Assembly (NCBI GenBank): GCA_947498785.1
Contig: CANMLS010000007.1
Span: forward strand, 1-64,000
Direction of reading: 5' to 3'
Length of the DNA stretch: 64,000 nucleotides
DNA from: an uncultured Aquimarina sp.
GTDB taxonomy: Bacteria; Bacteroidota; Bacteroidia; Flavobacteriales; Flavobacteriaceae
The translations under genes were made by a program, and so were the position numbers. Under the pieces are notes generated by a model. That model made no database searches. It saw only the letters and a program-made list of their open reading frames with translations, and was not told where the DNA came from. Of the stretch, positions 10,495 to 59,907 are shown piece after piece. Every line of letters starts with the position of its first letter. The first letter of the stretch is position 1.

Positions 10495-10608
10495 TAGCGC
10501 CTTCTAAAAATAATGATTTTTAAGGTGAGTTCGGTATAAAAAAATTACGCCGAAACCCTGACTCTTCGTTTAGATTTATTTTTACGCATCAAGATAATAA
10601 GTTAAGCA

Positions 10609-39277: not shown

Positions 39278-41209
39278 TTAAACCAGTATTCTAGGTTTTT
39301 TATGAACACTTTCCTTGTTTATTTTATCAATACTCTCAAAAGTAGAATTATTAGATATAAACTCAGGTACAATTTCTTTCAGTTTTCCAACAATTTGATG
39401 GTCTTGATTAAGTAAATTCATTATACAAAGATCATCTATTTTATCTTTAATCATTAAACAATCATCATCGTCAAACTTGCTTATCATTATTTTTTTATGA
39501 TAAGTAGGCAACGTATTTTCTGTATCTGCCAAAAGTTCTTCATACAATTTTTCTCCTGGTCTAAGCCCTGTTATCTTAATATCTATATCACTAGGATATT
39601 TAAGTCCTGACAGTCTAATCATTTTTCTGGCAAGATCAAATATCTTAACTGATTCACCCATATCAAAAATAAATATCTCTCCACCATTACCCATTGTTCC
39701 TGCTTCAATCACTAACTGTGATGCTTCAGGAATTGTCATAAAGAAACGAGTTACATCTTGATGTGTTACTGTTAATGGCCCTCCCTTTTGAATTTGTTTT
39801 TTAAATAATGGTATTACAGATCCATTCGACCCTAATACATTTCCAAATCGGGTTGTTATAAATTTAGTTTTACTATTAGTTCTATGCAACCATTTTATAT
39901 ACATTTCAGCAACTCTCTTTGTCGCCCCCATAACATTAGTGGGGTTTACTGCTTTATCTGTAGATACGAAAACAAATTTATCAACTCCAAATTCTGATGA
40001 TAAATCAGCAAGTTTTCTAGTCCCTAAAACATTAATTTTTATAGCTTCACAAGGGTTATTTTCCATAAGAGGTACATGCTTATAGGCTGCCGCATGAAAA
40101 ACCATATTTGGTCTATATTTTTCAAAAATAGTTTCTATCCTCTGATGATCTCTTATATCTGCTACAATTGGAGTAAAGTTAACAACCCCCTTACTAAGAA
40201 GCTCTTGCTGTAAGTCATACAAAGGAGATTCTGCCTGATCCACCAATACAAGGTGTTTATAACTATAATACGATGCTTGTCTAACAATCTCACTACCTAT
40301 TGATCCTGCCGCTCCAGTTATCAAGATAACTTTGCCATGAAGTTCTTCTTTGATATTTTGATTATCCATATTGATAGGAGCTCTATCCAAAAGATCTTCT
40401 ATCTGAATTTCTTTGATCTGAGAAACTTTTAATTTACCATCAATCCAATCATTAACCGCAGGTATAATTTTTACAGTAACCGGAAGTTTTAGTAAGTTAT
40501 CTGAAATTTCAGACAATCTCTTCTTATTGATATGAGGAATCGATACTACAATCTCTTTGATATTGTTCTTTGCGACAAAATTTTGATTAACAGAACCTGA
40601 AGAATATACTTTAATTCCGTTTATGGTTTTCCCAATTTTTTGAGGGTTATCGTCAATAAAACCAATTACTGATAGCGACCGATTAGAATCATTAGTTATC
40701 GCAGCTTGTGTAATCAAACCCGAATCTCCAGCACCGTATATCAAAATTTTAGAAGTTTCTCCTAATTTTGATTTCACATAATAAAAGCAGTACTTAAATA
40801 CCAAACGACTTGTTGTAAGTGTTATAATATTTAATAAATAATGAATACATATTATTGATACGGGAATATTTAACAATTCTGGCATTAGAGACATTCTACT
40901 AAAAGCCATTAAAAATCCAGTAAGGGTAATTAGAACAGTTACTGCCAAAAACAAATTGTATGCATCTCGCATCCCAGTATGTCTTACTACACCTTTATAA
41001 GATCCAATTAACAGAAAACTTAATGTGGCAAGACCAGCTACTATTGGTAACTGATACAATAGATTCACAATATCAAAATTCAACGTAATCCCAAACCTTA
41101 CTACGTATGCCAAAAAGAAATTAAAAATCGTTATAAACACATCAATAGATAACACCAGCCACTTAGACGCATGCTTATGGGAATTATTTACTAGGTAATT
41201 CTTAATCAT
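39278..41209 (-). CDS. CapD/PglF-like membrane nucleotide-sugar 4,6-dehydratase
   Basis: 643 residues. Four to five N-terminal transmembrane helices (residues ~15-125), a first Rossmann domain (LIYGAGDSGLITQAAI) and a catalytic SDR domain with LITGAAGSIGSEIVRQ and MGATK in place of the classical Y-x-x-x-K, which marks the UDP-GlcNAc 4,6-dehydratase group (PglF, WbpM, CapD). It would convert UDP-GlcNAc to the 4-keto-6-deoxy sugar. Its start overlaps the stop of the aminotransferase gene by 4 bp (ATGA), so the keto sugar is probably passed straight to that enzyme. Confidence 0.9.
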   Translation of the reverse strand: MIKNYLVNNSHKHASKWLVLSIDVFITIFNFFLAYVVRFGITLNFDIVNLLYQLPIVAGLATLSFLLIGSYKGVVRHTGMRDAYNLFLAVTVLITLTGFLMAFSRMSLMPELLNIPVSIICIHYLLNIITLTTSRLVFKYCFYYVKSKLGETSKILIYGAGDSGLITQAAITNDSNRSLSVIGFIDDNPQKIGKTINGIKVYSSGSVNQNFVAKNNIKEIVVSIPHINKKRLSEISDNLLKLPVTVKIIPAVNDWIDGKLKVSQIKEIQIEDLLDRAPINMDNQNIKEELHGKVILITGAAGSIGSEIVRQASYYSYKHLVLVDQAESPLYDLQQELLSKGVVNFTPIVADIRDHQRIETIFEKYRPNMVFHAAAYKHVPLMENNPCEAIKINVLGTRKLADLSSEFGVDKFVFVSTDKAVNPTNVMGATKRVAEMYIKWLHRTNSKTKFITTRFGNVLGSNGSVIPLFKKQIQKGGPLTVTHQDVTRFFMTIPEASQLVIEAGTMGNGGEIFIFDMGESVKIFDLARKMIRLSGLKYPSDIDIKITGLRPGEKLYEELLADTENTLPTYHKKIMISKFDDDDCLMIKDKIDDLCIMNLLNQDHQIVGKLKEIVPEFISNNSTFESIDKINKESVHKKPRILV

Positions 41210-42339
41210 CTCAAAATATTTTTAATTACTGATACAATTCTATATAAATCATCTTCTTCAAGATTAGACCCGCTTGGTAAGCAAAGTCCTCGATCAAATA
41301 GGTCATCAGAAATTCCATTGAGGTAGGCATCACAATCTGCAAATACAGTTTGTTGGTGCATGGGTTTCCATAATGGTCTTGACTCTATATTTTCTTCTGC
41401 TAGTGACAAACGTATTGCCTCTCTTAACTGATAAGAGCTGGTCTCAATACACGTAAGCCATCGATTAGAATGATATCCTGAAGGTTCTTCTAAAAACTTA
41501 ATTTCAGAGAAATCTTCAAGATTTTTTTTGTAAAATTTAAAATTGCTTCGTCTGTTATTTACATGAGAATCTAAAACTTCCATTTGTCCTCTACCAATAC
41601 CAGCCGTAATATTACTCATTCGATAGTTATATCCTATCTCTGAATGTTCATAGTGAGGAGCATTATCTCTTGATTGTGTAGCCCAAAATACTGCTTTCTC
41701 CTTATGCTCTTTATTTTTAGATACTAATGAACCACCTCCTGATGTAGTAATAATTTTATTTCCATTAAAAGAGAGGATCGATATATCTCCAAAGGTACCA
41801 CACTTAATTCCTTGATAAGTACTTCCCAGTGCTTCTGCACTATCTTCTAATACAGGAATTCTGTATTCTGAAGCAATGCTGTGAATAGCCTCAATATTAT
41901 AAGGCATACCGTACAAGTGCACAGCAACAATTGCCTTTGGTTTTTTACCCTTGGCAATTCTATCTTTTATTGCAATTTCAAGTTGTTGAGGACAAATGTT
42001 CCAAGTATCACTTTCACTATCTATAAAAATAGGTTTTGCTCCAAGATATACTATTGGATTAGCCGAAGCGGCGAAAGTAAAACTCTGACATAGAACTTCA
42101 TCACCATAACTTACATCTAATAACTTTAAACCTAAGTGCAATGAGGCCGTACCAGAACTTAATGCTGCTGCATGAACATTTTCTCCAAGATAAGTTTCAA
42201 GATCACTTTCAAATCCATTTACGTTTGGACCAAGTGGAGCTACCCAATTTGTATCAAATGCTTCTTTAACGAATTTTTGCTCTGTTCCACCCATATGCGG
42301 TGAAGAAAGCCATATTCTTTTAGAATCAATTATATTCAT
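41206..42339 (-). CDS. DegT/DnrJ/EryC1/StrS aminotransferase (PglE-like)
   Basis: Start chosen at ATG 42339 (MNIIDSKRIWLSSPHMGGTE), 377 residues; the TTG at 42363 is less likely. PLP-dependent nucleotide-sugar aminotransferase: ALSSGTASLHLGLKLL near the N-terminus, AVHLYGMPYNIEAI, EDSAEALGSTY and the Schiff-base lysine in LSFNGNKIITTSGGG. The opening, with W-L-S-S-P-H-M-G-G, matches the PglE/PseC-like set. It would put an amino group on C4 of the PglF-type product. It overlaps the dehydratase gene by 4 bp. Confidence 0.9.
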   Translation of the reverse strand: MNIIDSKRIWLSSPHMGGTEQKFVKEAFDTNWVAPLGPNVNGFESDLETYLGENVHAAALSSGTASLHLGLKLLDVSYGDEVLCQSFTFAASANPIVYLGAKPIFIDSESDTWNICPQQLEIAIKDRIAKGKKPKAIVAVHLYGMPYNIEAIHSIASEYRIPVLEDSAEALGSTYQGIKCGTFGDISILSFNGNKIITTSGGGSLVSKNKEHKEKAVFWATQSRDNAPHYEHSEIGYNYRMSNITAGIGRGQMEVLDSHVNNRRSNFKFYKKNLEDFSEIKFLEEPSGYHSNRWLTCIETSSYQLREAIRLSLAEENIESRPLWKPMHQQTVFADCDAYLNGISDDLFDRGLCLPSGSNLEEDDLYRIVSVIKNILR

Positions 42340-42592
42340 AATTTTCCCATTAAAAATGAACAATAACCTACTGCTGACTATAGATCACACAACAGTATAA
42401 TCATTAATCAAAATTCTTTTTCATGACAATCTAAAAAACGCTGGAAGAAGGGGGGTAGAACTTCCTTTTTTCGAATTTACTTTTAATATATTTTCCATAG
42501 CTAAAATAGTTCAGTTAAATTAATTATCAACTTAAAATTTGCTTTTTTAGACAGAACACTTAAAAAAGACGTTCAATGACCCATTTTTATGT
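42340..42592. other. Intergenic region upstream of the aminotransferase
   Basis: No gene. A weak stem GGAAG/CTTCC (42443-42447, 42461-42465) followed by six T flanks a run of six G (42450-42455), unusual in such AT-rich DNA. Confidence 0.4.
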
Positions 42593-42844: not shown

Positions 42845-43031
42845 CTTTAATAGAACCACAAAATTTACATTTTACTCTATTACATTGAGCATTATCAAAA
42901 ATAGTTCAATAAATATTTGATTTATTTAATTAAATACATAAAATTTACATTCTTCAAATCTAAAAAGGGTTTCTACAATATATTAATCCTTTTGTATAAC
43001 CTTCTTGAATTTTATAATTACAATAAAATAC

Positions 43032-44483
43032 ATGTTATTTAATTCATTAGACTTTTTCATATTTCTACCAATTGTATTTATACTATATTGGTTTATTTTT
43101 TATAAAAAACTTCAAATCCAGAATTTTTATATTCTTGCTGCTAGCTATATCTTTTATGGATTATGGGATTGGAGATTTTTATTTCTCATTTTAGCAAGCA
43201 CATTGGTTGATTTTTTTATTGGTCAAGCAATTCATAATAATGACGCGAAGAGAAAGAAAAAAATGTGCTTATGGGTAAGTATCATTTTTAATATTGGATT
43301 ACTTGGTTTTTTTAAGTACTATAATTTTTTCATAGACTCATGGGGTGACTTCTTAACAGTTTTTGGATATGAGTTAAAAAACACTTGGACATTACAGATT
43401 ATTCTACCAGTTGGAATTTCTTTTTATACATTTCAGACTATGTCATATTCTCTTGATATATATTATAAGAGACTTACCCCGACAAAAAACTTTATTGCGT
43501 TTGCTACATTCGTAAGTTTTTTTCCGCAACTAGTTGCTGGACCAATAGAAAGAGCCTCTAACCTATTATCACAAATCACAACAAAAAGAGTTTTTAATTA
43601 CACTCAATGTAAAGAAGGTTTAAAACTTATACTCTGGGGCTTATTTAAAAAGGTGGCAATAGCAGATTCTATTGCTCCAATAGTTGATGATATTTTTGCT
43701 AATTATAGCGATTATCCTGCCTCTACTCTAATTCTCGGCGTTTCTTTATTTAGTTTTCAAGTATATGGAGATTTTAGTGGATATTCTGATATTGCTATAG
43801 GAACTGCCAAATTATTTGGGATAGAATTAATGTCAAACTTTAAATTTCCAACCTTCTCAAGAAACGTTGCAGAATATTGGCAACGATGGCATGTTTCCTT
43901 ATCTACATGGTTTAGACATTATGTGTATATACCTCTTGGAGGAAGCAGAGTAAGTAAGCTCAAGTCTGTTAGAAACATTGTCATTATATTTTTAGTAAGT
44001 GGATTTTGGCATGGCGCTAATTGGACTTTTATTGTTTGGGGAGCCATTCATGCCCTATTATATATTCCTATATTCTTAATGGGTAGAAATCGTATATATA
44101 TGAATACTGTTGTAGCAGAAAACAGATGGCTACCTAATATAAAGGAAGTAGTTCAAATATTTATTACCTTTTTATTAGTTACATTTTCACGTGTGTTTTT
44201 TAGGTCAGAATCTATCTCTGATGCTTTTGGTTTTCTTAAGCAAATATGTTCTGATTTTACCTATGAAAACTACCAACACCCTTTAGGTTATAGAATGATA
44301 GATTATTTCATTCTACTTGCTGTTTTTGTTTTATATGAATTTAGAATACGAAGAGATGAACGTTCTCCGTTTAAGTTTAAATCCCAAATTGTACGTTTTA
44401 TAGTCTATACTATGGTAATTTTAGGAATGTTGCTATTTTTTGATGATAATATTGACAGATCTTTTATTTATTTCCAATTCTAA
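43032..44483 (+). CDS. MBOAT-family O-acyltransferase (AlgI/PatA/DltB-like)
   Basis: Start chosen at ATG 43032 (MLFNSLDFFIFLPIVFILYW), giving 483 residues and matching the start of the paralog at 60864-62276. About ten transmembrane helices; the MBOAT active-site His is in GFWHGANWTFIVWG, with the other conserved section VAEYWQRWHVSLSTWFRHYV. These integral membrane enzymes move acyl groups across the inner membrane onto exported glycans, with an SGNH partner. The SGNH-type gene follows 25 bp later, so the pair is co-transcribed. Acyl donor not shown by sequence. Confidence 0.92.
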   Translation: MLFNSLDFFIFLPIVFILYWFIFYKKLQIQNFYILAASYIFYGLWDWRFLFLILASTLVDFFIGQAIHNNDAKRKKKMCLWVSIIFNIGLLGFFKYYNFFIDSWGDFLTVFGYELKNTWTLQIILPVGISFYTFQTMSYSLDIYYKRLTPTKNFIAFATFVSFFPQLVAGPIERASNLLSQITTKRVFNYTQCKEGLKLILWGLFKKVAIADSIAPIVDDIFANYSDYPASTLILGVSLFSFQVYGDFSGYSDIAIGTAKLFGIELMSNFKFPTFSRNVAEYWQRWHVSLSTWFRHYVYIPLGGSRVSKLKSVRNIVIIFLVSGFWHGANWTFIVWGAIHALLYIPIFLMGRNRIYMNTVVAENRWLPNIKEVVQIFITFLLVTFSRVFFRSESISDAFGFLKQICSDFTYENYQHPLGYRMIDYFILLAVFVLYEFRIRRDERSPFKFKSQIVRFIVYTMVILGMLLFFDDNIDRSFIYFQF

Positions 44484-44508
44484 TCTAAAATGATTTATAA
44501 GAAATAGA

Positions 44509-45474
44509 ATGAAAAAATTAATTTTAAAAAGCATCCTTTATACTTTCTTAATACTTATTACATTAGAAGGATTTGTTCGCATTTTTCATTTAGGAAAAGA
44601 TACCCCTACTCGATTTCTTGATGAGCACAAAGTTGAAAAATGGAAACCCAATCAAAATGGGTTTTCGGTGACTGGAAATAGACGACAAAATTTCTCTGAA
44701 TATCACATTAACAATTCTGGATTCAATTCTTATCGAGAATTTAATCCTACAAAGGAAAAAACTGAAATTGCATTGGTTGGAGATTCTTTCATAGAAGGAT
44801 TTCATCAAAATTACTACAACTCTATTGGTAAAAAAATCGAAAAATCAATTCCAAAAATTGAAGTATATGAATATGGGTATGCGGGATATGATTTTGCTGA
44901 TCAATTGCATCTAATCTATGTATATGAGGAACAATTTTCTTTAATAGATCATATTATCCTGGGCATAAAATTTTCTAATGACCTTAACAGAAATGAATAT
45001 CATGTTGTTAATAGTCGACTAGCGTTAGAATCTCCTATGAATAAACTTTTAAAGAAAAGTAAATTGTTGGTCTATGCAAAAAGTATTGGAATCTTAGATC
45101 CTCCGCAAGAATTAGTATACCGACTTATTAATAGCATCAAACCAAAAACAAAGAAAAAACCTATTGATGAGATTGAAGTTTCTCGAATAAAAGAGGAAAA
45201 TGAAAAAAAACACTTAGCCAATTTTGAAAACTTAATCTCCAAATACGGATATGATAAACAGCGATTTACTCTTCTCTTAGATTCTAGAATAACAAGTGAT
45301 CTATTTTTATCCTATTTAGATCTAAACAACTTTAATTACATTGATTTCGCTTCGTCTTTTGAAGCATCTGATCGTCCTGTAACATTAATTTATGATAGAC
45401 ATTGGAACAATCATGGAAGAGAACTTATTGCACGACTTATTTCTGAATACATAAATAAAAAACAACGTCTCTAA
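44509..45474 (+). CDS. SGNH-hydrolase-like membrane-anchored protein (MBOAT partner)
   Basis: 321 residues with one N-terminal transmembrane anchor (ILKSILYTFLILITLEGFV) and a periplasmic SGNH domain: block I GDSFIEG, and block V DRHWNNHGRELIARL containing the catalytic Asp-x-x-His. Related AlgJ/AlgX- and DltD-type proteins complete O-acylation started by MBOAT proteins. The gene follows MBOAT by 25 bp and is convergent with the acyltransferase at 45490. Role as glycan acyl-transfer partner is inferred from family and position. Confidence 0.8.
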   Translation: MKKLILKSILYTFLILITLEGFVRIFHLGKDTPTRFLDEHKVEKWKPNQNGFSVTGNRRQNFSEYHINNSGFNSYREFNPTKEKTEIALVGDSFIEGFHQNYYNSIGKKIEKSIPKIEVYEYGYAGYDFADQLHLIYVYEEQFSLIDHIILGIKFSNDLNRNEYHVVNSRLALESPMNKLLKKSKLLVYAKSIGILDPPQELVYRLINSIKPKTKKKPIDEIEVSRIKEENEKKHLANFENLISKYGYDKQRFTLLLDSRITSDLFLSYLDLNNFNYIDFASSFEASDRPVTLIYDRHWNNHGRELIARLISEYINKKQRL

Positions 45475-45489
45475 ACTAATTTTTTAATA

Positions 45490-46650
45490 TTAATTATCAG
45501 GTGAAATCTGTTGCATTTTTTTACTTCCTACAATCAAATAAATTGCCTGATTCTTTGAAACCTCTAGAACTTTTACGTTAGAGATATTTTCTATACTCGT
45601 ATACAAAAAATCAAAAACAAATTTTCTTAAAAATAAGTATTCTTGTCTATTGTAATCAATCACCGTGCTATATTGTATATCACTATTAATATCTTCTATT
45701 GCAGATGTTGTGTATGACATTTCAAGAGAAATACCACCTTTTTTACGCCTTGCTTTAAACTTTTTATACCTAACATAAGCCACTTTGAATACAAACTCTT
45801 TAAAACTAGCTTTTGTATATTCTATCATTGCTCCTATATATGTAGAAATTGAGTTTTTTGGATATATAATCTGATGCTCAAAATTATATATATGATTACA
45901 CCATTCTCTTTTATAACTTAAATCTCCCATCCCCATTTCATAAGATTTATAGCTATTAGCTATACACCAATCTAATTTTTTATAAATCTCTACACTTCCA
46001 AGACTAAACTTACTATAGTCTATATCATATGATGATATAGAACTAAATAATCTTTCATTAAAATGATGATTGAGAGACACTACAATAGGCACATTATCAC
46101 TCTTAACCACAAATAGTGACGCTTTCTTTTCATTGATCAAAGAATAGTACATTTTTACATAATGATCCCATCTCATAAGACTCTGACTCACATCATTGCG
46201 CTGCTCAAATCTTCTAACCAACATTTTATGCAAACAATCCATTAAAAAATCATATTCCTCCTTCTCAATAGCCCCAAAATATGTCTTATAAGAAATTTGA
46301 AAGCATGATTCTAGTCTTTTGACTCTCCTTCTTATTCCTTTAGCATTACTTCTAAAGCGATATTTTATATATGCATCAGCACTAATAAAATCATCAAGAA
46401 AAATAGCGTATCCTTTAAAAAATTGATTTATTTTTTTGGTATTAAATATCTGATGATTAAGTATCGGTTTTAAGTAATCTGGAATAAAAAAAACAGAATA
46501 TATTTTATCTGAATTCTCGATACTATTTTTATCGTAATCAGAATTCATTACTGACTCTTCACTCCCGAAACTGTCAATTTTTGAAAATACTTTAGGAATT
46601 GAATTTTTTTCAAAAAGCTCAAAAAAATAATCAATATACTCTTTTTTCAT
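45490..46650 (-). CDS. GNAT/FemAB-like acyltransferase, copy 1
   Basis: Start chosen at ATG 46650 (MKKEYIDYFFELFEKNSIPK), 2 bp after the upstream gene stop; 386 residues. The C-terminal half has the BioF2-like/Acetyltransf_6 GNAT pattern: FLMDCLHKMLVRRFEQRNDV, then SLFVVKSDNVPIVVSLNHHF, LGSVEIYKKLDWCIANSYKS and YEMGMGDLSYKREWC. Proteins of this group (FemAB, CelD/BcsL-like) use aminoacyl-tRNA or acyl-CoA to acylate amines on glycans. Three such genes lie in this cluster. Donor and acceptor cannot be read from sequence. Confidence 0.75.
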   Translation of the reverse strand: MKKEYIDYFFELFEKNSIPKVFSKIDSFGSEESVMNSDYDKNSIENSDKIYSVFFIPDYLKPILNHQIFNTKKINQFFKGYAIFLDDFISADAYIKYRFRSNAKGIRRRVKRLESCFQISYKTYFGAIEKEEYDFLMDCLHKMLVRRFEQRNDVSQSLMRWDHYVKMYYSLINEKKASLFVVKSDNVPIVVSLNHHFNERLFSSISSYDIDYSKFSLGSVEIYKKLDWCIANSYKSYEMGMGDLSYKREWCNHIYNFEHQIIYPKNSISTYIGAMIEYTKASFKEFVFKVAYVRYKKFKARRKKGGISLEMSYTTSAIEDINSDIQYSTVIDYNRQEYLFLRKFVFDFLYTSIENISNVKVLEVSKNQAIYLIVGSKKMQQISPDN

Positions 46651-46652
46651 AC

Positions 46653-47735
46653 TCAAGATCTATAAAACGGAAAAAAGTAATTCTTCAAATCCTCTTCTTC
46701 AATCTCCATAAAATCTGTATTAACAGAGGAGCACAACTCATTATAAATTTCCTTATTAACAATTTTTCTACCTGTATAGAACATGACATCTTCATCTTTA
46801 GGAAACAATGCTTTCTTACTTTTATATAAACCATCTCCATCTCTCATTCCACCTCCCAATACATAATGTTTCATTTTATTTTGAATAGCCCATTCAATTA
46901 TTTTTACTCTTAAAAAATCATTAGGTCTATAACTAAAATACTCTGCATCTGTTCCTCCTAAAAACGCAAAAAATGTATCCTTATAATTAATAATAAGTTC
47001 TATAGAAATAGGAATACCTTCATAATATGCAATTGCAATAGAAAAATTACCCAAATTAGATAATATCAAATTTTCAAAATATGAATTCGAAAAAAAATAA
47101 ATACTATCTGCATTATTTCTATTCATAGTACTCACGTAGATATCATTAAAAATTTTAATGATGTCTTTAGTAATTTGATCTTTATGAAATACTTTGAACT
47201 CTAAATTATAATTTACTGCTTTTCTATAGTTATTTCTCACTTTTGGTAAGAATGCGGTCCATTGATCTTCAAAATCATCTAAGAGATTACCTCTTACATT
47301 GAAAAGAGATTCAATAAGAGTTCCTGAATATCCATTAGAGTTTCCATTTAAACTAAAACGAACAAACTCTGAAATAACACTATTATCTAAATACCATTGA
47401 TCTACATATCTCCAAAATTCGATAACATCTTCTTCAGAAACAGCATCATCAAACAAAGGCCCATTATAACCATACGGACTAATCACATCAAAATAAGGAA
47501 GTTCTTTCTCTTTTATCATTATTTTTCTAAAAACAAAAGGCATAAGAATGATTGGAGCATCTTCTTTCTCGAATAAAAAACACTTTAATGCATCAGAATC
47601 TTTCTCAAAATATTGCAAATGCTCAATAGAATAGTATACATTATTATCCCATCTATTTTGAAGAAGAGTTTTATATGCTAAGACCTCTGAACTATCATCG
47701 AGGTTTTTTATTACTAGTTTGTAGTTTTGTTTCAA
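46653..47735 (-). CDS. FemAB/GNAT-like acyltransferase, copy 2
   Basis: 360 residues from a TTG start at 47735 (no in-frame ATG nearby). Two-domain FemAB-like layout: N-terminal GNAT subdomain (YFDVISPYGYNGPLFDD, which resembles the Y-x-x-P-Y-G-Y-x-G-P section of FemAB proteins) and C-terminal subdomain with SIAIAYYEGIPISIELIINY, FLGGTDAEYFSYRPNDFLRV and HYVLGGGMRDGDGLYKSKKA. FemAB enzymes add amino acids to peptidoglycan from aminoacyl-tRNA; EPS-locus relatives probably acylate glycan amines. 32 bp after the NeuD-FAD gene and 2 bp before copy 1, so all are on one transcript. Confidence 0.8.
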   Translation of the reverse strand: MKQNYKLVIKNLDDSSEVLAYKTLLQNRWDNNVYYSIEHLQYFEKDSDALKCFLFEKEDAPIILMPFVFRKIMIKEKELPYFDVISPYGYNGPLFDDAVSEEDVIEFWRYVDQWYLDNSVISEFVRFSLNGNSNGYSGTLIESLFNVRGNLLDDFEDQWTAFLPKVRNNYRKAVNYNLEFKVFHKDQITKDIIKIFNDIYVSTMNRNNADSIYFFSNSYFENLILSNLGNFSIAIAYYEGIPISIELIINYKDTFFAFLGGTDAEYFSYRPNDFLRVKIIEWAIQNKMKHYVLGGGMRDGDGLYKSKKALFPKDEDVMFYTGRKIVNKEIYNELCSSVNTDFMEIEEEDLKNYFFPFYRS

Positions 47736-47767
47736 TTGTAAGGGTATTTCGTGGTTTATTAGTTCAT

Positions 47768-50008
47768 CTAGCGATCTTCTTTTAACTCGGTATTCTCTAG
47801 AAAGTAATCATTAATTTTTTGTGACAATATATGGGATAACCATATGATTCTTCCGCAATGCTCTACATGCCATACTGCTTTTCCTTCAAAAGTATTTCCC
47901 GCTAGTAATGGCCCTACAATATGTAGATTTTCTTTTGATTCTAAAGCTTCATTAACCTCAAAGCCTATTTTAGAATCATTTGGTTTGCAATATCCTTTAT
48001 CTATCAAGTTCTTTAATAATTCAGGAACATCACTTTTGGTTAAATTAGTACTCCCAACACAGTTAATAATAAGATGTATTGGTTCTTCATATATTTTATT
48101 TTTCCCAGATTGTGTATCTAAGTATTCTAAAGAATATTGATCATTGTCAGCTTTACAAATATTCGTAAACCTTCCTGCAATATGATGAAAGCGACCTTCT
48201 TCTTTTAACCCATCGATTACTTTAGAATAGTGATACCCCGCACATCTTTGTCTTCTACCAATTTCATTACCATAATGACATGCAAAATTTTTCAATTCAT
48301 CAGGACTAAGTTTTCCTAACAAAGAACCAAATGCTCTTGATATGATATCAACCGTTGACGCAGCTCCCAAATTCATCTCATCTGCATAATCAAGGTCTTT
48401 AAATGTAGCGTCTGCAATTTCTTTTGCAGTTATATTATTTTCTTTGGCTAGTGCGTGTAAATTAAATGGAGTATACTCTTTTCTATGCTCTTCGTCTATT
48501 ACCGAATCAGGTAACAGCCCTTGAGTAGAAAGAAACATAAATTTATCTATATGAGATGCTATACCTTCAATGTCATTTAATTTATAAAGCATTTCTAAAC
48601 CACTTGCATTTGCCCCAACAATGAGAACATTTACTTTTTGACTTGATTTTTTCTCAAGAAAACTTTCTATTTTCTCTAGCACCTTTTTTAACTCAGGCTT
48701 ATAAGGATCATTAATAAAGAGTATATTGTCTTCTTCTATCAAATCTTCATTCTTCCAAAGATGATTTACAGGTAGAGATCCAACAGAAAGAACAATTTTT
48801 TCAGATATTATAGTTTTTTTATTCTCCAATGATATGATATATTGATTCTCAGTTTTTTCTAAATCAACAACCTCCTGGTTAATGTAATTGACATTAATTA
48901 ACCCTTTTATTTTAAAATCTTCTAGTCTGGTTTTTACTTTTTCATTTATATACCATCCAAAAAAACGACGAGGGATAAACAAATCTTCCCATTCGTTATT
49001 TTCTATTTTACTAGCATGTGTAGATATCCACTCCAGAGACAATTTTCCTCCATCTTTTTTCAACTCATCGATTAACCAATTCTTATTATTATTTAGCCAT
49101 TTAATAAACTTTCCTAATTCTGGTTCTGGCAGGAAATTTTTTAGAGAGGTAATTAAATGTACCGAAAATCCCGATCGCCCACCATATGGGATACCAGTAT
49201 GGAATTCTTCATACTTATCAATAATATTAATATGTATTTTTCTTTTGTCTTTACTGTCTTCTATCAAATCTAAAAAGTGAAGAATAGTAAAGGATGACGA
49301 AATACCTGAACCAATGAATGTAACATCAGATGATTTAGGTGTATTATTAAATAACATTTCTGGTTGTTTTGTTCTAATTATTTTACCTGGGTTACCTACT
49401 ACAGTAGAATAATCTGGTACATCTTTTAACACCACTGTTCCAGCTCCTATAGTACACCATTTCCCAATCTTTACTTTTGGTATTACTACTGCTCCTACAC
49501 CAACATGTGAACCCTCTCCCACTTCTACATGACCACATAATGCTGCTTTAGGAGAAATATGTGCATAATCCCCTATAACATTATCATGATCAATACTTGC
49601 TGCAGTATTAATGATCACATGTCTTCCAATCACAGTATTTGGCTGAATGATCGCTCCTGCAAAGACCACAGTACCTTCTCCTATTTTTGCGGTAGGTGCT
49701 ATAATTGCGGATTGATGTATTGCTTTTTCAAAATCACTTTTAAGAAATCCAGCGATCTCTGCTCTTTCTGCATTAATACCTACTGCAACAATTACAGGAT
49801 GTCCTTCATGAGGAAATTCTTTTAGATTCCCTCTAGCTCCAGAAGTCACATTTTTTGATGCATAATGTCGACCAGAAGGTTTGTCATCAAAAGTTTCAGT
49901 TACCTCATAACCATTCTCTTCTAATACTTCTCGTATAACCTGAGAATGACCGCCAGCCCCATAAATCCTTATTTTATTTGATTTTCCAACTATTTCCATT
50001 TTCCTCAT
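47768..50008 (-). CDS. Fusion: NeuD/PglD-like acyltransferase + FAD/NAD(P)-binding oxidoreductase
   Basis: 746 residues. Residues 1-212 are a complete NeuD/PglD-type sugar acyltransferase: a Rossmann start RIYGAGGHSQVI (14-25), hexapeptide-repeat left-handed helix (~95-205), likely base His141 in SIDHDNVIGD, and the closing VVGNPGKII. After a short linker, residues ~228-746 are an FAD/NAD(P)-binding protein of the COG4529 type: FIGSGISSSFTILHFLDLIE (231-250), then IPYGG, a second dinucleotide fold NVLIVGANASGLEMLYKL, and a C-terminal NCVGSTNLTK. COG4529 proteins include putative hydroxylases of amino compounds. The acyltransferase half would complete a diNAcBac-type sugar; the oxidoreductase half might oxidise the same sugar or a carrier-bound amino acid. 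Confidence 0.85.
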   Translation of the reverse strand: MRKMEIVGKSNKIRIYGAGGHSQVIREVLEENGYEVTETFDDKPSGRHYASKNVTSGARGNLKEFPHEGHPVIVAVGINAERAEIAGFLKSDFEKAIHQSAIIAPTAKIGEGTVVFAGAIIQPNTVIGRHVIINTAASIDHDNVIGDYAHISPKAALCGHVEVGEGSHVGVGAVVIPKVKIGKWCTIGAGTVVLKDVPDYSTVVGNPGKIIRTKQPEMLFNNTPKSSDVTFIGSGISSSFTILHFLDLIEDSKDKRKIHINIIDKYEEFHTGIPYGGRSGFSVHLITSLKNFLPEPELGKFIKWLNNNKNWLIDELKKDGGKLSLEWISTHASKIENNEWEDLFIPRRFFGWYINEKVKTRLEDFKIKGLINVNYINQEVVDLEKTENQYIISLENKKTIISEKIVLSVGSLPVNHLWKNEDLIEEDNILFINDPYKPELKKVLEKIESFLEKKSSQKVNVLIVGANASGLEMLYKLNDIEGIASHIDKFMFLSTQGLLPDSVIDEEHRKEYTPFNLHALAKENNITAKEIADATFKDLDYADEMNLGAASTVDIISRAFGSLLGKLSPDELKNFACHYGNEIGRRQRCAGYHYSKVIDGLKEEGRFHHIAGRFTNICKADNDQYSLEYLDTQSGKNKIYEEPIHLIINCVGSTNLTKSDVPELLKNLIDKGYCKPNDSKIGFEVNEALESKENLHIVGPLLAGNTFEGKAVWHVEHCGRIIWLSHILSQKINDYFLENTELKEDR

Positions 50009-50088
50009 TACTATAATTAAGTTGATTTGTTGGTTTCCTAAACTTTAGTTTGTTAACAAAAAACGATATCAGATGTTTATCGTTTTTA

Positions 50089-50691
50089 TTAGTTATTTCC
50101 TTTCCAAGCAGGCATAATGGTGTTCTGATCAACATTTACACCTTCCTTTTTGACTACTTTTTGCAAGGTCAAAAACAAAATTTTAACATCTAACATAAAA
50201 CTTATGTTTTCTACATACCATACATCGTATTCAAATTTTTGAATCCATGATATTGTATTCCTACCTTTTACCTGTGCCCATCCTGTTATTCCAGGTCTTA
50301 CATTGTGTCTTTTTTTCTGTACATCATTATACAAAGGTAAGTATTCCTCCAAAAGTGGTCTTGGACCTATTAAACTCATATCTCCTTTTAATACATTTAT
50401 AAGCTGTAAAATCTCATCTAATGAATATTTTCTTACAAAAGCCCCTACCTTAGTTATTCGAGATACATTATGAATATCTTTCTCATCTGACTTGAGATCA
50501 GACATGGTTTTAAACTTAATAATTTTAAAAAGCTTTCCGTTTTTTCCTGGTCTTTGTTGCAAAAAAAACGGTTTGCCATTATTCACCACAAATAATATTA
50601 AAACGAGTATGATTATAAATGGTGATAATAAGAGAACACCAAAAAGAGAAAGGAAAAAATCTAACACTCTTTTAATATATGGATTATACAT
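50089..50691 (-). CDS. Initiating sugar transferase, PglC-like, copy 1
   Basis: Start chosen at ATG 50691 (MYNPYIKRVLDFFLSLFGVL), 200 residues; the frame open upstream to 50727 would overlap the carrier gene. Membrane re-entrant helix, then the bacterial sugar transferase core: GKPFFLQQRPGKNGKLFKII, KFKTM, the Asp-Glu dyad in SLDEILQL, MSLIGPRPLL and RPGITGWAQVKGR. The short length places it with monotopic PglC-type phosphoglycosyl transferases, which move a phosphosugar to undecaprenyl phosphate. It is next to the carrier protein and NeuD-FAD genes. Paralog at 53727-54332. Confidence 0.9.
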   Translation of the reverse strand: MYNPYIKRVLDFFLSLFGVLLLSPFIIILVLILFVVNNGKPFFLQQRPGKNGKLFKIIKFKTMSDLKSDEKDIHNVSRITKVGAFVRKYSLDEILQLINVLKGDMSLIGPRPLLEEYLPLYNDVQKKRHNVRPGITGWAQVKGRNTISWIQKFEYDVWYVENISFMLDVKILFLTLQKVVKKEGVNVDQNTIMPAWKGNN

Positions 50692-50710
50692 AATCGTTCT
50701 TTCAAAAAAA

Positions 50711-50950
50711 TTACAATTCAGATTCAATCGTTCTGATCAAATCTCCAACATTATTCATATTCATTAGGTCCATTAACTTAAACTTAATACCAAAAGATTT
50801 TTCTACCTCTGATATAATCATCATATGTGTAATCGACTCCCAACCATCAACATCGTTAGCTGTAGTTGTATCTGTAAGTTGAAAATTATCGTGTTCTAAT
50901 ACTGTTACAAAAGCTTCTTTTACCTTAGAGAAAATTTCTTCTTTATTCAT
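50711..50950 (-). CDS. Stand-alone acyl/peptidyl carrier protein
   Basis: 79 residues, four-helix carrier-protein pattern. The phosphopantetheine attachment serine is Ser39 in DVDGWESITHM, the W-E-S-I form found in Dlt-type and some EPS-locus carriers. It starts 11 bp after the stop of the AMP-ligase gene and precedes the sugar transferase, on the same strand. It would carry an activated amino or other acid from the ligase to one of the FemAB/GNAT-like enzymes or to MBOAT. Confidence 0.88.
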   Translation of the reverse strand: MNKEEIFSKVKEAFVTVLEHDNFQLTDTTTANDVDGWESITHMMIISEVEKSFGIKFKLMDLMNMNNVGDLIRTIESEL

Positions 50951-50961
50951 TTATAGACTAT

Positions 50962-52458
50962 TTAATTTATGTCAAAATACGTTCTTAATTCTTTCCTATT
51001 AATCTTACCATTAATACTATGTGGAAATTCTTTAACAAATCTCACATGTCCTGGAATCATATAATCTGGCATTTTTATTTTCATATATTCAAACATATCA
51101 GCGGTATCAAATTCATCAGATTCAATAGCCAAACCTAACTCGGCATTACCCAAATTATTGGTAATATCTAATGCTACCATATTTACCTTCTTAGGGGACT
51201 TTGATTTAGCATGAAATTCAATTTCTGCTAGTTCTACTCTATATCCTCTTATTTTCACCTGAAAGTCTACTCTTCCTACGTACAAAAAGTCTCCTTCTTC
51301 ATCCTTGAAACAAAGATCACCCGTTTTATAATAACGTTGTTGCTTTCCTTTCTCTTCTTTTGTAAAAAAACTAATCGCATTTCGTTCTTCATTTTTCCAA
51401 TATCCAGGAGTTATTTGTGGACCACCCAAACATAATTCTCCTGTGACTCCAATGGGTACTTCCTCATTTTTTTCGTTTACAACAAGATATAGTGTGTCTT
51501 TCTGTGGAGTTCCGATTGCAATAATACCATTATGCGCTTTCTTATCAGTTTCTTTATGGTATGGATAAAAGCCACTATATACTGTAAATTCTGTTGGGCC
51601 ATAGTAATTAAATATTTTACAATTTGGCAGACAATCACTCCACTCTTTTGCAATATCACTATGTAAAGCTCCTCCTCCAAAACTACAATACCTAACATCA
51701 GGAGCATTAATCTCTGGGAAATATGGGCGTAAATAATTGATAATCGAAGGAACCATAGTAAGTACCGTAAGTTTCTGCTCTTTAATCAATTTAAAAATAT
51801 AGAAATACTTTATTGCACTTTTGGGTATGGTATACATACATGCGCCTCCCAATATTGGAAACAAGTAGGTAACCACTGAGAAGTCAAAAGTAAGTTCAAA
51901 CATTTGTAAGCATCTATCCGACGGAACCAAATTAAACTCTGATTCAGCATCAATAGCGTTCACTAATCCTTGCACATTATCAAAAGTAATAGGCACTCCT
52001 TTTGGAAGCCCCGTAGTGCCCGATGTAAATAAAATATATGCTAAGTCATCCCCAGAAACCTCTTTAGGATTCAAATTAATCTCTGTAAACTCTAATGTTG
52101 ATGACGCTATAACGGTTTGATTTTTATATATAGAAGTTTTTGAAGAATCAAGAACATATTTTGTTTCTGTTAATTCAAAAACCTTTGTATTTCTTTCTAT
52201 AGGAGTAGAAGGATTTACAGGAACATATGCTTTTCCTTCAAACCAAAGGGCAATAATACTTGCATATGTTTGTAGATCGTCATTGGTTACTAATCCAATA
52301 AGTTTTTCAGATTCTGCCACTGTATTTGCTATTGCAGATCTAATCTTGGATATCTCTACAGCAAAATCCTTATATGTATAGAACGTATTGTTAATACATA
52401 ACACATTACCTGCTGAGTGACTCTCTATTGATTCTTGTAGTTTTTTTACAAATTTCAT
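50962..52458 (-). CDS. AMP-forming amino acid/acid ligase (DltA-like adenylation enzyme)
   Basis: 498 residues. Adenylation core motifs: A3 ILFTSGTTGLPKGVP, A5 NYYGPTEFTVYSG, A7 YKTGDLCF, A8 RVDFQVKIRGYRVELAEIE, and A10 with catalytic Lys in NGKINRKELR. The size and A8/A10 pattern are close to D-alanine:carrier ligase DltA and related stand-alone adenylation enzymes. It activates an acid as the AMP ester and loads it on a carrier protein, whose gene is 11 bp downstream. The substrate cannot be read off; the pocket between A4 and A5 would need modelling. Confidence 0.9.
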   Translation of the reverse strand: MKFVKKLQESIESHSAGNVLCINNTFYTYKDFAVEISKIRSAIANTVAESEKLIGLVTNDDLQTYASIIALWFEGKAYVPVNPSTPIERNTKVFELTETKYVLDSSKTSIYKNQTVIASSTLEFTEINLNPKEVSGDDLAYILFTSGTTGLPKGVPITFDNVQGLVNAIDAESEFNLVPSDRCLQMFELTFDFSVVTYLFPILGGACMYTIPKSAIKYFYIFKLIKEQKLTVLTMVPSIINYLRPYFPEINAPDVRYCSFGGGALHSDIAKEWSDCLPNCKIFNYYGPTEFTVYSGFYPYHKETDKKAHNGIIAIGTPQKDTLYLVVNEKNEEVPIGVTGELCLGGPQITPGYWKNEERNAISFFTKEEKGKQQRYYKTGDLCFKDEEGDFLYVGRVDFQVKIRGYRVELAEIEFHAKSKSPKKVNMVALDITNNLGNAELGLAIESDEFDTADMFEYMKIKMPDYMIPGHVRFVKEFPHSINGKINRKELRTYFDIN

Positions 52459-52536
52459 CCTATATATTAAACAATTAATTTTTTACAACATCGGTTAATT
52501 ACATTAACAAAAACACATAATTTTTAAAGACTTTTT

Positions 52537-52553
52537 TAGGGGATTAACCCCTA
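52537..52553. repeat. GC-tract hairpin upstream of the ligase
   Basis: TAGGGG-ATTAA-CCCCTA (stem 6 bp). On the minus strand TAGGGGTTAATCCCCTA resembles TAGGGGTTTTCCCCC at 42831-42845. Possible operator or leader hairpin of the EPS genes. Confidence 0.4.
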
Positions 52554-52606
52554 TATTTTCAATTATAATTTACTTCTATATTATATAAGATCAAAACAAA
52601 GTTTTA

Positions 52607-53704
52607 TTAATAAAAATGACCATCTCTGTTTAATATATCCGAATTTTCAAAATCCAGTTTGGTATCATCATGAGCCAACCCTTTTTTCGTTACTCGATGT
52701 GTAAAAATAGTACTATATCTTTTTGTTATATGATCTGATAGTTTCGTATCATCTGTAAAAATGAACTTTGTTTTCTTCGTAATAAAATTATCCATCAACA
52801 CATCTATACATATATCATAATACTCCTCTTCTTTTACCAGAAAATATTTGACATTAAATTCATTATAATTTATGATATAGGATAAAAATCCAATAATCTG
52901 ATCTCTTTTCATAATCTTAAGGTTATGAATATAGATATTATTACTAGTTCCTGTTTGTAAGGATTTATATGGACGTTTAGTCGCTATTGGGGTTTGCATA
53001 TACTGCATAGCATTAATCTGCCAACTTACATATTCCTTTGTTTTATAGATCAAATCGTTCTTGCAAAGTGGTTCTATAAATTCCCAGATAGCGTCATCCA
53101 ACTGGTTAATATAATCATAAGAAAGCATTTTAGTTGTTTTTCTAGCCTTAGGTCTATTTAGAAGTCTAATACATGATGCTACAGCATTGTCAACTCTATC
53201 CAAAATAAACTTAAATGATTTTAAGAACCTAAATCGTCCGATAAGCATTGATGCATCTAAACTAAAAAAGATGGTATGCCTTAATCTTGATGAGATTATG
53301 GTAAAAGGCTGTTTTTCATAAAATGTAGTTACATTCTCTGCATAAGATTTTATAAGTATTTGTTTTCCTGTTAGGTTAACAGCTTCATTATAAATATAGG
53401 TTCCCAAAACCGTATCTTTATAATCTTTGTGTACCCACCAGGATATCATCCAATATACCTTTGATGGTTCATTGCTCCCATTATTCAATAAATCGGGAAA
53501 CATAAAAACAAAAGAGATCATTTTATTATCCTCATACCCTATAACACCGCAATACTCATCTTCTTCTATCCGTGTATTGGAGACCAACCATAGTGCTTTA
53601 CTTTTTGGTAAGGGAGTAAGATCTCCTTTCCAATAGGTATTTTGATCAATACCTTCTCTTAGCATTTTTTTGGTTATCGCAACTATTTCTAAATTTTTAC
53701 TCAT
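52607..53704 (-). CDS. GNAT-like acyltransferase, copy 3
   Basis: 365 residues. An N-terminal GNAT-type module (WWVHKDYKDTVLGTYIYNEA, IKSYAENVTTFYEKQPFTII) and a C-terminal second module (IGFLSYIINYNEFNVKYFLV). No signal or membrane segment. It is one of three acyltransferase-like genes in the cluster, here between the second sugar transferase and the ligase/carrier pair. It may transfer the carrier-bound acid to a nucleotide sugar or lipid-linked sugar. The exact subfamily is not certain. Confidence 0.65.
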   Translation of the reverse strand: MSKNLEIVAITKKMLREGIDQNTYWKGDLTPLPKSKALWLVSNTRIEEDEYCGVIGYEDNKMISFVFMFPDLLNNGSNEPSKVYWMISWWVHKDYKDTVLGTYIYNEAVNLTGKQILIKSYAENVTTFYEKQPFTIISSRLRHTIFFSLDASMLIGRFRFLKSFKFILDRVDNAVASCIRLLNRPKARKTTKMLSYDYINQLDDAIWEFIEPLCKNDLIYKTKEYVSWQINAMQYMQTPIATKRPYKSLQTGTSNNIYIHNLKIMKRDQIIGFLSYIINYNEFNVKYFLVKEEEYYDICIDVLMDNFITKKTKFIFTDDTKLSDHITKRYSTIFTHRVTKKGLAHDDTKLDFENSDILNRDGHFY

Positions 53705-53726
53705 CTATTATTCCTAAGAAATATAA

Positions 53727-54332
53727 CTAGTTTGTACCGTCAAAATATTCTGATGTCAGATCACTTGATAGATTTACATCTTCTTTTTGTATTACTTTTT
53801 TTAGTGTTAATCCTATTATTTTTAGATCCAACAAAAAATTATAGTTTTCTACATACCATACATCATATTCAAATTTCTTTTTCCATGTTATAGAATTTCT
53901 TCCATTAACCTGGGCCCATCCTGTAATCCCAGGTCTTACATTATGTCGCTTTTTTTGAACTTCATTATATACCGGGAGATAGGCTATAATCAAAGGGCGA
54001 GGCCCTATTAACGACATTTGTCCTAATATTACATTGAACAATTGAGGAATTTCATCCAAAGATGTTTTTCTAACAAAAGCTCCAATTTTTGTAATTCTAT
54101 CTTTATCTGGAAGCAAATTCCCTTCAGCATCTTTTTTATCGTTCATTGTTTTAAACTTTACGATACTAAAAATCTTTTCTTTCTTTCCAGGTCTTCTCTG
54201 AATAAAAAAGGGTTTACCTCCATTAGCCATTGCTAAAAAAAATATCAATAGTAATAAAACAGGCGATATAAAAATCAATGATACCAGTGCAATACTAAAA
54301 TCAAGAATTCTTTTAATAAAAAATTTATACAC
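53727..54332 (-). CDS. Initiating sugar transferase, PglC-like, copy 2
   Basis: Start chosen at GTG 54332 (VYKFFIKRILDFSIALVSLI), aligned with the start of copy 1; an AAAGG lies just before it; 201 residues. Same core: GKPFFIQRRPGKKEKIFSIV, KFKTM, SLDEIPQLFN with the Asp-Glu dyad, MSLIGPRPL and RPGITGWAQVNGR. A second phosphoglycosyl transferase in one cluster may start a second repeat-unit type, use a different phosphosugar, or be a redundant copy. It lies 22 bp upstream of the GNAT-like gene on the same strand. Confidence 0.9.
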   Translation of the reverse strand: MYKFFIKRILDFSIALVSLIFISPVLLLLIFFLAMANGGKPFFIQRRPGKKEKIFSIVKFKTMNDKKDAEGNLLPDKDRITKIGAFVRKTSLDEIPQLFNVILGQMSLIGPRPLIIAYLPVYNEVQKKRHNVRPGITGWAQVNGRNSITWKKKFEYDVWYVENYNFLLDLKIIGLTLKKVIQKEDVNLSSDLTSEYFDGTN

Positions 54333-59292: not shown

Positions 59293-59907
59293 ATGAAAAC
59301 AATACAAAATTCAGGAATAAATTTCAAAAAAAACACAAAACTAGTAGTGATCATCAATAATATCAAATGGTTTACCTTGGTTTTCTTAACTATTATTTTT
59401 TGCTTCTCCTGTGAAAATGACGATGCTGATAATAGAATCGCAGAACTAGAATCTATTATCGCTCAGATCAATGCTGAACAAGCAATTATTATGCAAAATC
59501 TCGAAACATTTGATACATTAGACTTCAAAGTTTTTACTAATCAAGAGTGGTCGCGTCTTCATGAAAGTCATGGAGAAAATATTAAGGTAAATTGGCCAGA
59601 TGGAAGGATTACCGAAGGTATTGAGCAACATATTGAAGACCTAAAATTCTTATTTGTTTTTGCTCCGGACACAAGAATTTTAACTCACCCAATAGGTATT
59701 GGTTCAGAAAATCATACTGCTGTTATGGGCATTATGGAAGGAACTTTTACCCAACCGATGCCGCTTCCGGACGGCGGGTTTATACCCCCTACAGGAAAAG
59801 CATTCAAAATACCAATGGCTACCATAGGAATTTGGGAAAATGGCGTGATGATTGAAGAGTTTCTTTTTTGGGATAATAAATCATACAATGACCAAATAGG
59901 AATCTAA
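59293..59907 (+). CDS. SnoaL-like (ester cyclase/NTF2-like) lipoprotein
   Basis: 204 residues. After a basic N-terminus and a hydrophobic stretch (FTLVFLTIIFCFSC) a lipoprotein Cys40 is likely. A short coiled segment (IAELESIIAQINAEQ) leads to an NTF2-like domain: WSRLHESHGENIKVNWPDGR, then THPIGIGSENHTAVMGIMEG and WENGVMIEEFLFWDNKSY. This is the SnoaL-like ester cyclase fold; the substrate is unknown. Its stop codon overlaps that of the SGNH gene on the other strand by 4 bp. It is the likely target of the Crp/Fnr regulator upstream. Confidence 0.8.
   Translation: MKTIQNSGINFKKNTKLVVIINNIKWFTLVFLTIIFCFSCENDDADNRIAELESIIAQINAEQAIIMQNLETFDTLDFKVFTNQEWSRLHESHGENIKVNWPDGRITEGIEQHIEDLKFLFVFAPDTRILTHPIGIGSENHTAVMGIMEGTFTQPMPLPDGGFIPPTGKAFKIPMATIGIWENGVMIEEFLFWDNKSYNDQIGI

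Follow-up and report, generated by a model that had tools for sequence, protein, structure and literature searches.

The window analyzed here is the first 64 kb (64,000 nucleotides) of a 159,560-base contig (~30% GC) from the 5.67-Mb genome of an uncultured Aquimarina species. It carries a polysaccharide cluster that starts with a Wzc gene (35942), continues with genes for an export protein (38306), a PglF-like enzyme (39278), and a PglE-like enzyme (41206), and runs on past the window end. Within this cluster lies a trio of minus-strand genes (52607-50711) that we propose, as an evenly balanced reading, to be an aminoacyl-carrier-protein decoration module of the surface polysaccharide, with a GNAT-fold protein making the transfer:

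50962 to 52458, minus strand: A1, a free-standing amino acid adenylation enzyme of the DltA/nonribosomal peptide synthetase (NRPS) type, 498 residues, with pocket D-F-V-T-S-G-Y-V-Y-K
50711 to 50950, minus strand: ACP1, a carrier protein of 79 residues with phosphopantetheine Ser39 in DGWESITHM (PP-binding match, 1.4e-6)
52607 to 53704, minus strand: a tandem GNAT-fold protein, the proposed aminoacyl-carrier-protein transferase (sub-threshold GNAT match, 0.0038; two-domain GNAT fold in an AlphaFold2 model)

An earlier reading of the letters alone (the original prediction) had placed A1 and ACP1 at these coordinates, with an 11-bp gap and the carrier serine at position 39, and the open reading frames, both on the minus strand, confirmed this. 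The protein families, catalytic residues, and linkage of the genes are directly evident in the sequence. A1 matched AMP-binding (1.2e-57), the amino acid adenylation model TIGR01733 (7.4e-90), and two DltA models (5.3e-77 and 9e-75), with all three NCBIfam models below their cut-offs; against the DltA equivalog TIGR01734, it scored 252 bits, below the cut-off of 560. The pocket Asp and the catalytic Lys of amino acid adenylation enzymes were conserved in 57/57 A1 sequences, and we take the Asp to bind the substrate amino group and the Lys to be catalytic. The GWES motif of ACP1 was found in all 57 A1-linked copies, the window's included. Activation of a common fatty acid, the outcome against which the original prediction had set its own proposal, was not borne out, since the pocket Asp is kept and amino acid models fit best; the Asp and the models matched (amino acid adenylation and DltA) led us to reject it for A1. 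Thus, A1 very likely loads an amino acid on ACP1.

The ten specificity positions read DFVTSGYVYK in 54/57 A1 sequences, a code with no convincing match to the known pocket codes considered. Two variants, DMVTSAYIYK (L097 and L172) and DFVSSGYIYK (L171 and L173), were seen, as was a sister pocket, DATK(I/V)GHVCK (L045, L099, L169, L170, and one of L167). The sister pocket is like the aspartate code, DLTKVGHIGK, in 6 or 7 of the 10 positions, and by its residues it looks aspartate-like. At position 301, A1 has Gly, whereas DltA 3dhv has Cys in the alignment. The same Cys is shared by 4oxi and by 31 of the 33 aligned sequences labeled as A2, the adenylation enzyme of a second set encoded past the window end. 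Because the A2 pocket resembles those of DltA 3dhv and 4oxi, we guess its substrate to be a small residue, glycine or alanine. The closest solved pocket region was 4oxi for both enzymes (1.7e-11 for A1 and 9.7e-18 for A2), which is presumably AlmE, the ligase that charges a carrier with glycine for the modification of lipid A.

A survey of gene neighborhoods, proposed with the original prediction, returned a conserved carrier-acylation module. Scanning a species-genome collection for A1 gave 59 loci, of which two were of the A2 type (L100, L101) and two were NRPS-like pieces (L104, L105); without these four, and with L045 of G138 included, the set comprised 56 loci in addition to the window. 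Nearly all close A1 loci were from Aquimarina or other Flavobacteriaceae, and the nearest named relative of A1 was that of Aquimarina algiphila (96% identity). ACP1 lay within 300 bases after A1 in 56/56 loci, and the GNAT gene was directly upstream of A1 in 55/56, the exception being L082; an arrangement kept this strictly is not a matter of chance. In four loci (L086, L087, L089, and L091), the trio was found without MBOAT/SGNH, PglD, or flavoprotein genes, and in L076 (Mariniflexile) it stood outside a polysaccharide cluster, again without any of these, beside a DegT sugar aminotransferase gene. The next matched gene after ACP1 in the 56 loci encoded a phosphotransferase in 28, PglD in 26, and an aminotransferase in 1, with none matched in 1. 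A FemAB-like protein (46653 in the window) was present in 54/56 loci, a phosphotransferase in 54/56, a flavoprotein in 43, and MBOAT and SGNH-type proteins in 42 each. Two side observations concern the upstream flank: arrays of 3 to 6 Acetyltransf_6-like genes precede the trio in L073, L075, L077, L080, L085, and L099 (Flavivirga, Flaviramulus, Gaetbulibacter, and relatives), and on the 4-kb contig of L082, genes for a PID-CTERM protein and an exosortase-family protein lie directly upstream of A1-ACP1 (437-1305), a possible link to an exosortase system.

Genome scans gave a similar picture. In 66 genus genomes, enzymes were classed as A1 type (48 to 53% identical to A2) or A2 type (at least 57%); the former were found in 50 genomes and the latter in 23, and 22 genomes had both, in 21 of them on one contig with starts 17 to 42 kb apart. 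The GNAT was searched for in 21 genus genomes; all 17 genomes that had it also had A1, and the 4 without it had no A match at E 1e-130. In the family (219 genomes from 218 genera), the GNAT profile matched in 11 genomes and an A1-related enzyme (E 1e-100) in the same 11, that of G901 being only of the A2 type; the other 208 had neither at the thresholds used. Both A1 and A2 were rare in wider scans, with 2/296 genomes of the order at E 1e-90 and 4/395 of the phylum at E 1e-100, our own genome counted. G901 has GNAT-ACP1 without an adjacent A gene, 3 kb from an A2-ACP2-MBOAT2-SGNH2 set, and G904 has the order GNAT-A-GNAT-A-ACP1, with different pockets in the two A enzymes and one carrier found. 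Between them, these two natural arrangements connect the GNAT with the carrier and give each A enzyme a GNAT of its own.

The AlphaFold2 model of the GNAT, from 35 sequences, has two GNAT domains (mean predicted local distance difference test [pLDDT] score, 84.6). Its best Foldseek matches were N-myristoyltransferases and tandem GNATs such as 2hv2 and Eis2, at a template modeling (TM) score of ~0.5, and a profile search for solved relatives yielded nothing convincing. The canonical coenzyme A (CoA) loop, RxxGxG, was found in 0/35 rows at the corresponding position of the first domain, which reads mostly K(D/N)TVLG; elsewhere, RxxGxG occurred only once, in L092. We then compared 21 GNATs, chosen from one set of 56 rows and another of 10, with the 20 A enzymes beside them. 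The GNAT tree has two clades (100/99) that track the pocket type of the adjacent A enzyme, both G904 pairs included; 1 of the 20 pairs is an exception. In the A tree, the Asp-like enzymes group as a single clade (100/100), and a supported branch separates their GNATs, along with that of L095, from the others. Altogether, we judge it rather likely that ACP1 is the donor for the GNAT.

The cluster supplies candidate enzymes for making and loading an acceptor sugar, as well as further acyltransferases:

39278 to 41209, minus strand: PglF/WbpM-type UDP-N-acetylglucosamine 4,6-dehydratase (TIGR03589, 5.8e-58, below cut-off)
41206 to 42363, minus strand: PglE/LegC-type sugar aminotransferase, which would make a 4-amine (TIGR04181, 2.2e-113, below cut-off)
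50089 to 50691, minus strand: PGT1, a small PglC-type sugar-1-phosphate transferase (Bac_transf, 9.9e-62; ATG at 50691, with the open frame extending to a TTG at 50727)
53727 to 54332, minus strand: PGT2, a second PglC-type sugar-1-phosphate transferase (Bac_transf, 6.7e-61; open frame extending to a TTG at 54386)
46653 to 47735, minus strand: FemAB-like acyltransferase (Acetyltransf_6 match; FemAB 24.6 bits, cut-off 24)
45490 to 46656, minus strand: Acetyltransf_6 (GNAT superfamily) protein (close or distant match in 43/56 A1 loci)
47768 to 50008, minus strand: fusion of a PglD/NeuD-type acyltransferase (residues 1-210; TIGR03570, 1.8e-63, over cut-off) and a flavoprotein with a class B N-hydroxylase fold (residues ~225-746; NAD_binding_9)

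The three FemAB/GNAT-like acyltransferases of the original prediction were upheld, those at 45490 and 46653 as Acetyltransf_6 proteins and that at 52607 by the two-domain fold of its model; the PglD-flavoprotein fusion, the two PglC-like phosphotransferases flanking the trio, and the A2 set past the window end had been overlooked. In the route that we propose, A1 would activate an amino acid with ATP and load it on the phosphopantetheine arm of ACP1. In the cytosol, the tandem GNAT would then take the aminoacyl group from ACP1, and not from CoA or transfer RNA (tRNA). The acceptor would most likely be the 4-amine of a 2,4-diamino sugar, the expected product of PglF and PglE, and aminoacylation would precede loading of the sugar on undecaprenyl phosphate by PGT1 or PGT2. 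The FemAB-like protein at 46653 possibly carries out a further aminoacyl transfer, and together with the Acetyltransf_6 protein it may add a second residue or a cap. A sugar 4-amine is a plausible acceptor because PglF/PglE-like enzymes are encoded in the cluster, and the DegT aminotransferase gene accompanies the trio even outside a polysaccharide cluster (L076). Moreover, 4-amino-4,6-dideoxyglucose occurs in known bacterial glycans with N-acetyl-D-alanyl and N-acetylglycyl substituents, as passages of PMC3210612 describe. For an amino sugar as the acceptor, we see the chances as equally divided. No route to amide-linked amino acids on amino sugars through a carrier protein and a GNAT was found described in our searches of the open-licence literature; the trio offers a compact, testable candidate route with at least two natural pocket types.

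Several points weigh against this proposal. The activity of the trio and the glycan structure are predictions from sequence, and the PglF and PglE models score below their cut-offs. PglE was out of reach in 23 of the 54 long loci, in which the stretches end ~10 kb from A1, and one of the 31 matches is the DegT of L076; moreover, L076 had no phosphotransferase or FemAB match nearby. The donor for the GNAT could be tRNA, and the argument from the missing CoA loop is weak because Fem-type GNAT-fold ligases use aminoacyl-tRNA (described in part of PMC2922099). In L095, the pocket type of the A enzyme and the clade of its GNAT disagree. The shared clades of GNAT and A enzymes are no proof of function, since genes in linkage are passed on jointly, which could by itself account for much of the pairing. 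Correlations of distances with those of A1 were 0.875 for the GNAT and 0.801 for FemAB over all rows and, without L045 and L099, 0.82 for the GNAT, 0.83 for FemAB, and 0.86 for the MBOAT. Distance correlation was therefore dropped as a pointer to the partner of A1, as it was not discriminating and did not single out the GNAT.

The original prediction had also pointed to MBOAT and SGNH-type proteins nearby and had cast them as the DltB and DltD counterparts of A1-ACP1. The pair is listed here with a third MBOAT of the cluster:

43005 to 44483, plus strand: MBOAT with a C-terminal FIYFQF acyl-shuttle motif (MBOAT match, 7.4e-29, over cut-off)
44509 to 45474, plus strand: SGNH-type protein (GDSFI...DRHW), an AlgX/PatB-like MBOAT partner (motif-based assignment)
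60864 to 62276, minus strand: third MBOAT, with the same FIYFQF tail; a DUF1574 protein (59904-60860) is encoded next

The MBOAT stands, and the SGNH assignment is weaker: the best Pfam matches of the protein at 44509-45474 were PA26/sestrin (1.8e-4, below cut-off) and ALGX (0.015), and the assignment rests on the GDS...DxHW motifs, present in 43/43 full copies counted. A second set of genes, A2-ACP2-MBOAT2-SGNH2 (L009), lies at contig positions 68675-72818, starting 4.7 kb past the window end and ~19 kb from A1; its genes share one strand and are 6 to 24 bp apart, and A2 is 51% identical to A1. The order A-carrier-MBOAT-SGNH was found in all 28 loci whose A2 was at least 57% identical (our own, those of 22 genus genomes, L100, L101, L168, L176, and L177), five of which have two A enzymes in tandem. 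A2 scored 286 bits against TIGR01734, below the cut-off of 560, and neither SGNH protein (the window's or that of the A2 set) matched Pfam DltD at E 0.1. After rows that were not closed or were aligned over <380 residues had been dropped, C termini reading FIYFQF or FIYLQF were found in 53/53, 25/25, and 25/25 full copies of the three MBOAT families; MBOAT2 of the A2 set thus bears the FXYXXF shuttle motif on the MBOAT itself (25/25). Passages of PMC12148441 place this acyl-shuttle motif on DltX and PatA. A carrier-linked MBOAT with a fused shuttle tail represents a form between Dlt and PatAB. In L177, the A2 set is followed (9364-11934) by an extra carrier-like gene (43% to ACP1) and then by MBOAT and SGNH-type genes, with no adenylation enzyme matched beside them. 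Two distant Bacteroidota sets, L143 and L144, combine A2-like ligases and a carrier protein with single GNATs, one of them with an FkbH protein. Set beside A2-ACP2-MBOAT2-SGNH2, they indicate different transferase back ends on one adenylation/carrier front end.

Could A1-ACP1 instead feed the MBOAT/SGNH pair at 43005-45474, so that the polysaccharide would be esterified outside the cell? All four families lie within 10 kb, the MBOAT at 43005 has the shuttle motif, and MBOAT and SGNH genes are found downstream of A1 in 42 each of the 54 long loci, with MBOAT distances that track those of A1 as well as any (the 0.86 given above). However, the pair is on the strand opposite to A1-ACP1; of the 30 A1 loci extending to PglE, 5 (L086, L087, L089, L091, and L094) have the trio without the pair; relatives of the pair occur without A1 (E 1e-90) in G079, as a co-oriented pair, and in G281, as both genes in opposed orientation; and the cluster has a separate A2-ACP2-MBOAT2-SGNH2 set. 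Since the trio and the MBOAT/SGNH genes each occur without the other, we rejected a split Dlt system as the principal explanation and consider it improbable; the pair at 43005-45474 is probably an O-acylation unit separate from the trio and fed by acetyl-CoA. Thus, what survives of the amino acid decoration first suggested is carrier-based amino acid activation in a polysaccharide cluster, given the Asp and Lys of all 57 sequences, and not the split Dlt architecture; the likeness to Dlt fails for the trio and applies to the A2 set outside the window.

The GNAT might also act one step earlier, N-acylating the amine of aminoacyl-ACP1, after which FemAB, PglD, or another enzyme would move the N-acyl-aminoacyl group to the sugar. 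N-Acetyl-alanyl and N-(3-hydroxybutyryl)-alanyl groups occur in known glycans (passages of PMC3210612), and two distant Bacteroidota loci have A, ACP, and at least two single GNATs; yet the GNAT lacks the CoA loop, the L076 trio has no FemAB or PglD match, and PglD is unmatched in 7/54 long A1 loci, which leaves this sequence of steps unlikely, though the least so of the rivals. The closeness of the A1 pocket region to 4oxi, presumably AlmE, and the separation of the trio from polysaccharide genes in L076 would fit a module that makes a small secreted metabolite or aminoacylates lipid A like AlmEFG, rather than one that supplies a polysaccharide substituent. This is hard to reconcile with the sugar phosphotransferase in reach in 54/56 loci and with the Wzc, export protein, and glycosyltransferases of the cluster, and we think it improbable. 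The carrier could, finally, hold a non-amino acid (hydroxy or fatty); the O-chain of Flavobacterium psychrophilum, with its 3,5-dihydroxyhexanoyl group, is a predicted case, in which transfer from ACP to a PglD homolog is foreseen (part of PMC6519341). The chance of this is very slight: the amino-binding Asp is kept in 57/57 sequences, the best whole-protein models are those of amino acid adenylation and DltA, and no ketosynthase or ketoreductase was found among the 10 proteins scanned. Transfer of an amino acid from ACP1 by the GNAT thus remains our preferred reading.

The PglD-flavoprotein fusion may add a further chemistry to the cluster. The flavoprotein half, modeled with AlphaFold2 from 33 sequences (mean pLDDT, 85.3), has two dinucleotide-binding domains as in SidA and PvdA, and its Foldseek ranks 1 to 37 were N-hydroxylases (E 2.7e-15 to 1.7e-12; TM score, ~0.5), among them SidA, PvdA, DesB, DfoA, a putrescine hydroxylase, and the aspartate hydroxylase FzmM; close behind, from rank 38 (2e-12), come thioredoxin and lipoamide reductases. 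NAD_binding_9 matched 33/33 relatives and Lys_Orn_oxgnase (PF13434) matched 3/33 weakly (best, 0.0013), and a profile search at E 10 for related solved N-hydroxylases found none, so that the sequence backs this assignment only thinly. PglD was directly upstream of the flavoprotein in 43/43 A1 loci with the flavoprotein, as a single open frame in 17. L042 and L043, neither with an A1 match, show the same adjacency, and L044 has the flavoprotein alone; among 395 phylum genomes, only our own and G079 had the flavoprotein. According to passages of PMC7347517, the N-O bonds that flavin N-hydroxylases form in siderophores mostly belong to hydroxamates, amino sugars are reported among the substrates of the flavin N-hydroxylating enzymes taken as a class, and a cytidine monophosphate (CMP) conjugate is the substrate of FrbG. 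On these grounds, we put forward a more speculative picture, which we regard as improbable: the polysaccharide would bear two carrier-fed amino acid decorations, one N-linked in the cytosol by an aminoacyl-ACP-reading GNAT and one ester-linked externally by an MBOAT that draws on a carrier and has its own shuttle, while PglD-flavoprotein would N-hydroxylate and then N-acylate a 4-amine to give a hydroxamate sugar. No direct precedent for a hydroxamate polysaccharide was found in the literature searched; if such a sugar were made, the product would be a metal-binding surface glycan.

Elsewhere in the cluster, the region from 62 to 81 kb encodes glycosyltransferases, a polymerase-like protein, and a flippase-like protein, the last two named by reading the sequence only, and a PaaK/FlxY-like acyl ligase (below model cut-off) extends from 63495 across the window end to contig position 64889. 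The genome also has large NRPS-like genes on another contig (C5, 175346-204022), with open frames of up to 4739 residues and a phosphopantetheinyl-transferase match 4 kb on; this family has 4 matches in the genome.

Several known systems resemble parts of the module. In Gram-positive Dlt (DltA, DltC, DltB, DltD, and DltX), the A enzyme and carrier are related to those of the trio, and the order and parts of the A2 set are as in DltA-C-B-D; in contrast, an MBOAT is the next matched gene after A1-ACP1 in 0/56 loci, and MBOAT2 has its own FXYXXF tail, like PatA, in place of DltX, with the Dlt models below cut-off. No direct precedent for a Gram-negative dlt was found in the literature searched. 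AlmE-AlmF-AlmG of Vibrio cholerae shares with the trio a Gram-negative envelope, a DltA-like ligase with a carrier, and the nearest solved pocket region (4oxi), in which Cys 301 is common to A2 and replaced by Gly in A1. The AlmG acyltransferase belongs to the lipid A type, whereas the transferase linked in the trio is a tandem GNAT. Clusters of the XrtA/PEP-CTERM type combine an AMP ligase (TIGR03098) with a FemAB protein (TIGR03019) among polysaccharide genes, and both models match here, but far below their cut-offs (179 versus 592 bits and 31 versus 260 bits, respectively); a direct precedent for the module in such clusters was not found in the literature searched. In RfbKL-type perosamine acylation of V. 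cholerae O1, a carrier is predicted to supply a non-amino acid for the N-acylation of a 4-amino sugar. The same is predicted, in passages of PMC6519341, for WfpD/WfpG of F. psychrophilum, which likewise place a carrier in a surface glycan cluster; these differ from the trio in the non-amino acid and in having a PglD-type transferase where the trio has a tandem GNAT. Closest in mechanism is the SB-203208 pathway, for which parts of PMC6331615 report that SbzB loads an amino acid on the carrier SbzG or SbzK and that the GNAT SbzC moves it to a hydroxyl, in small yield, with CoA being no substitute; the GNAT SbzI passes an acyl group from a carrier to an amine, and FeeM is a further ACP-using GNAT. 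SbzB-SbzG/SbzK-SbzC and the trio have in common a free-standing adenylation enzyme, a discrete phosphopantetheine carrier, and a linked GNAT, but the former acts on a small antibiotic scaffold in Streptomyces and the trio belongs to a polysaccharide cluster in flavobacteria. SbzC and the window GNAT are likened here as GNAT-fold transferases, and carrier-to-acceptor transfer by the trio is predicted. The parts are thus ordinary and their combination uncommon, with one solid biochemical precedent for the mechanism.

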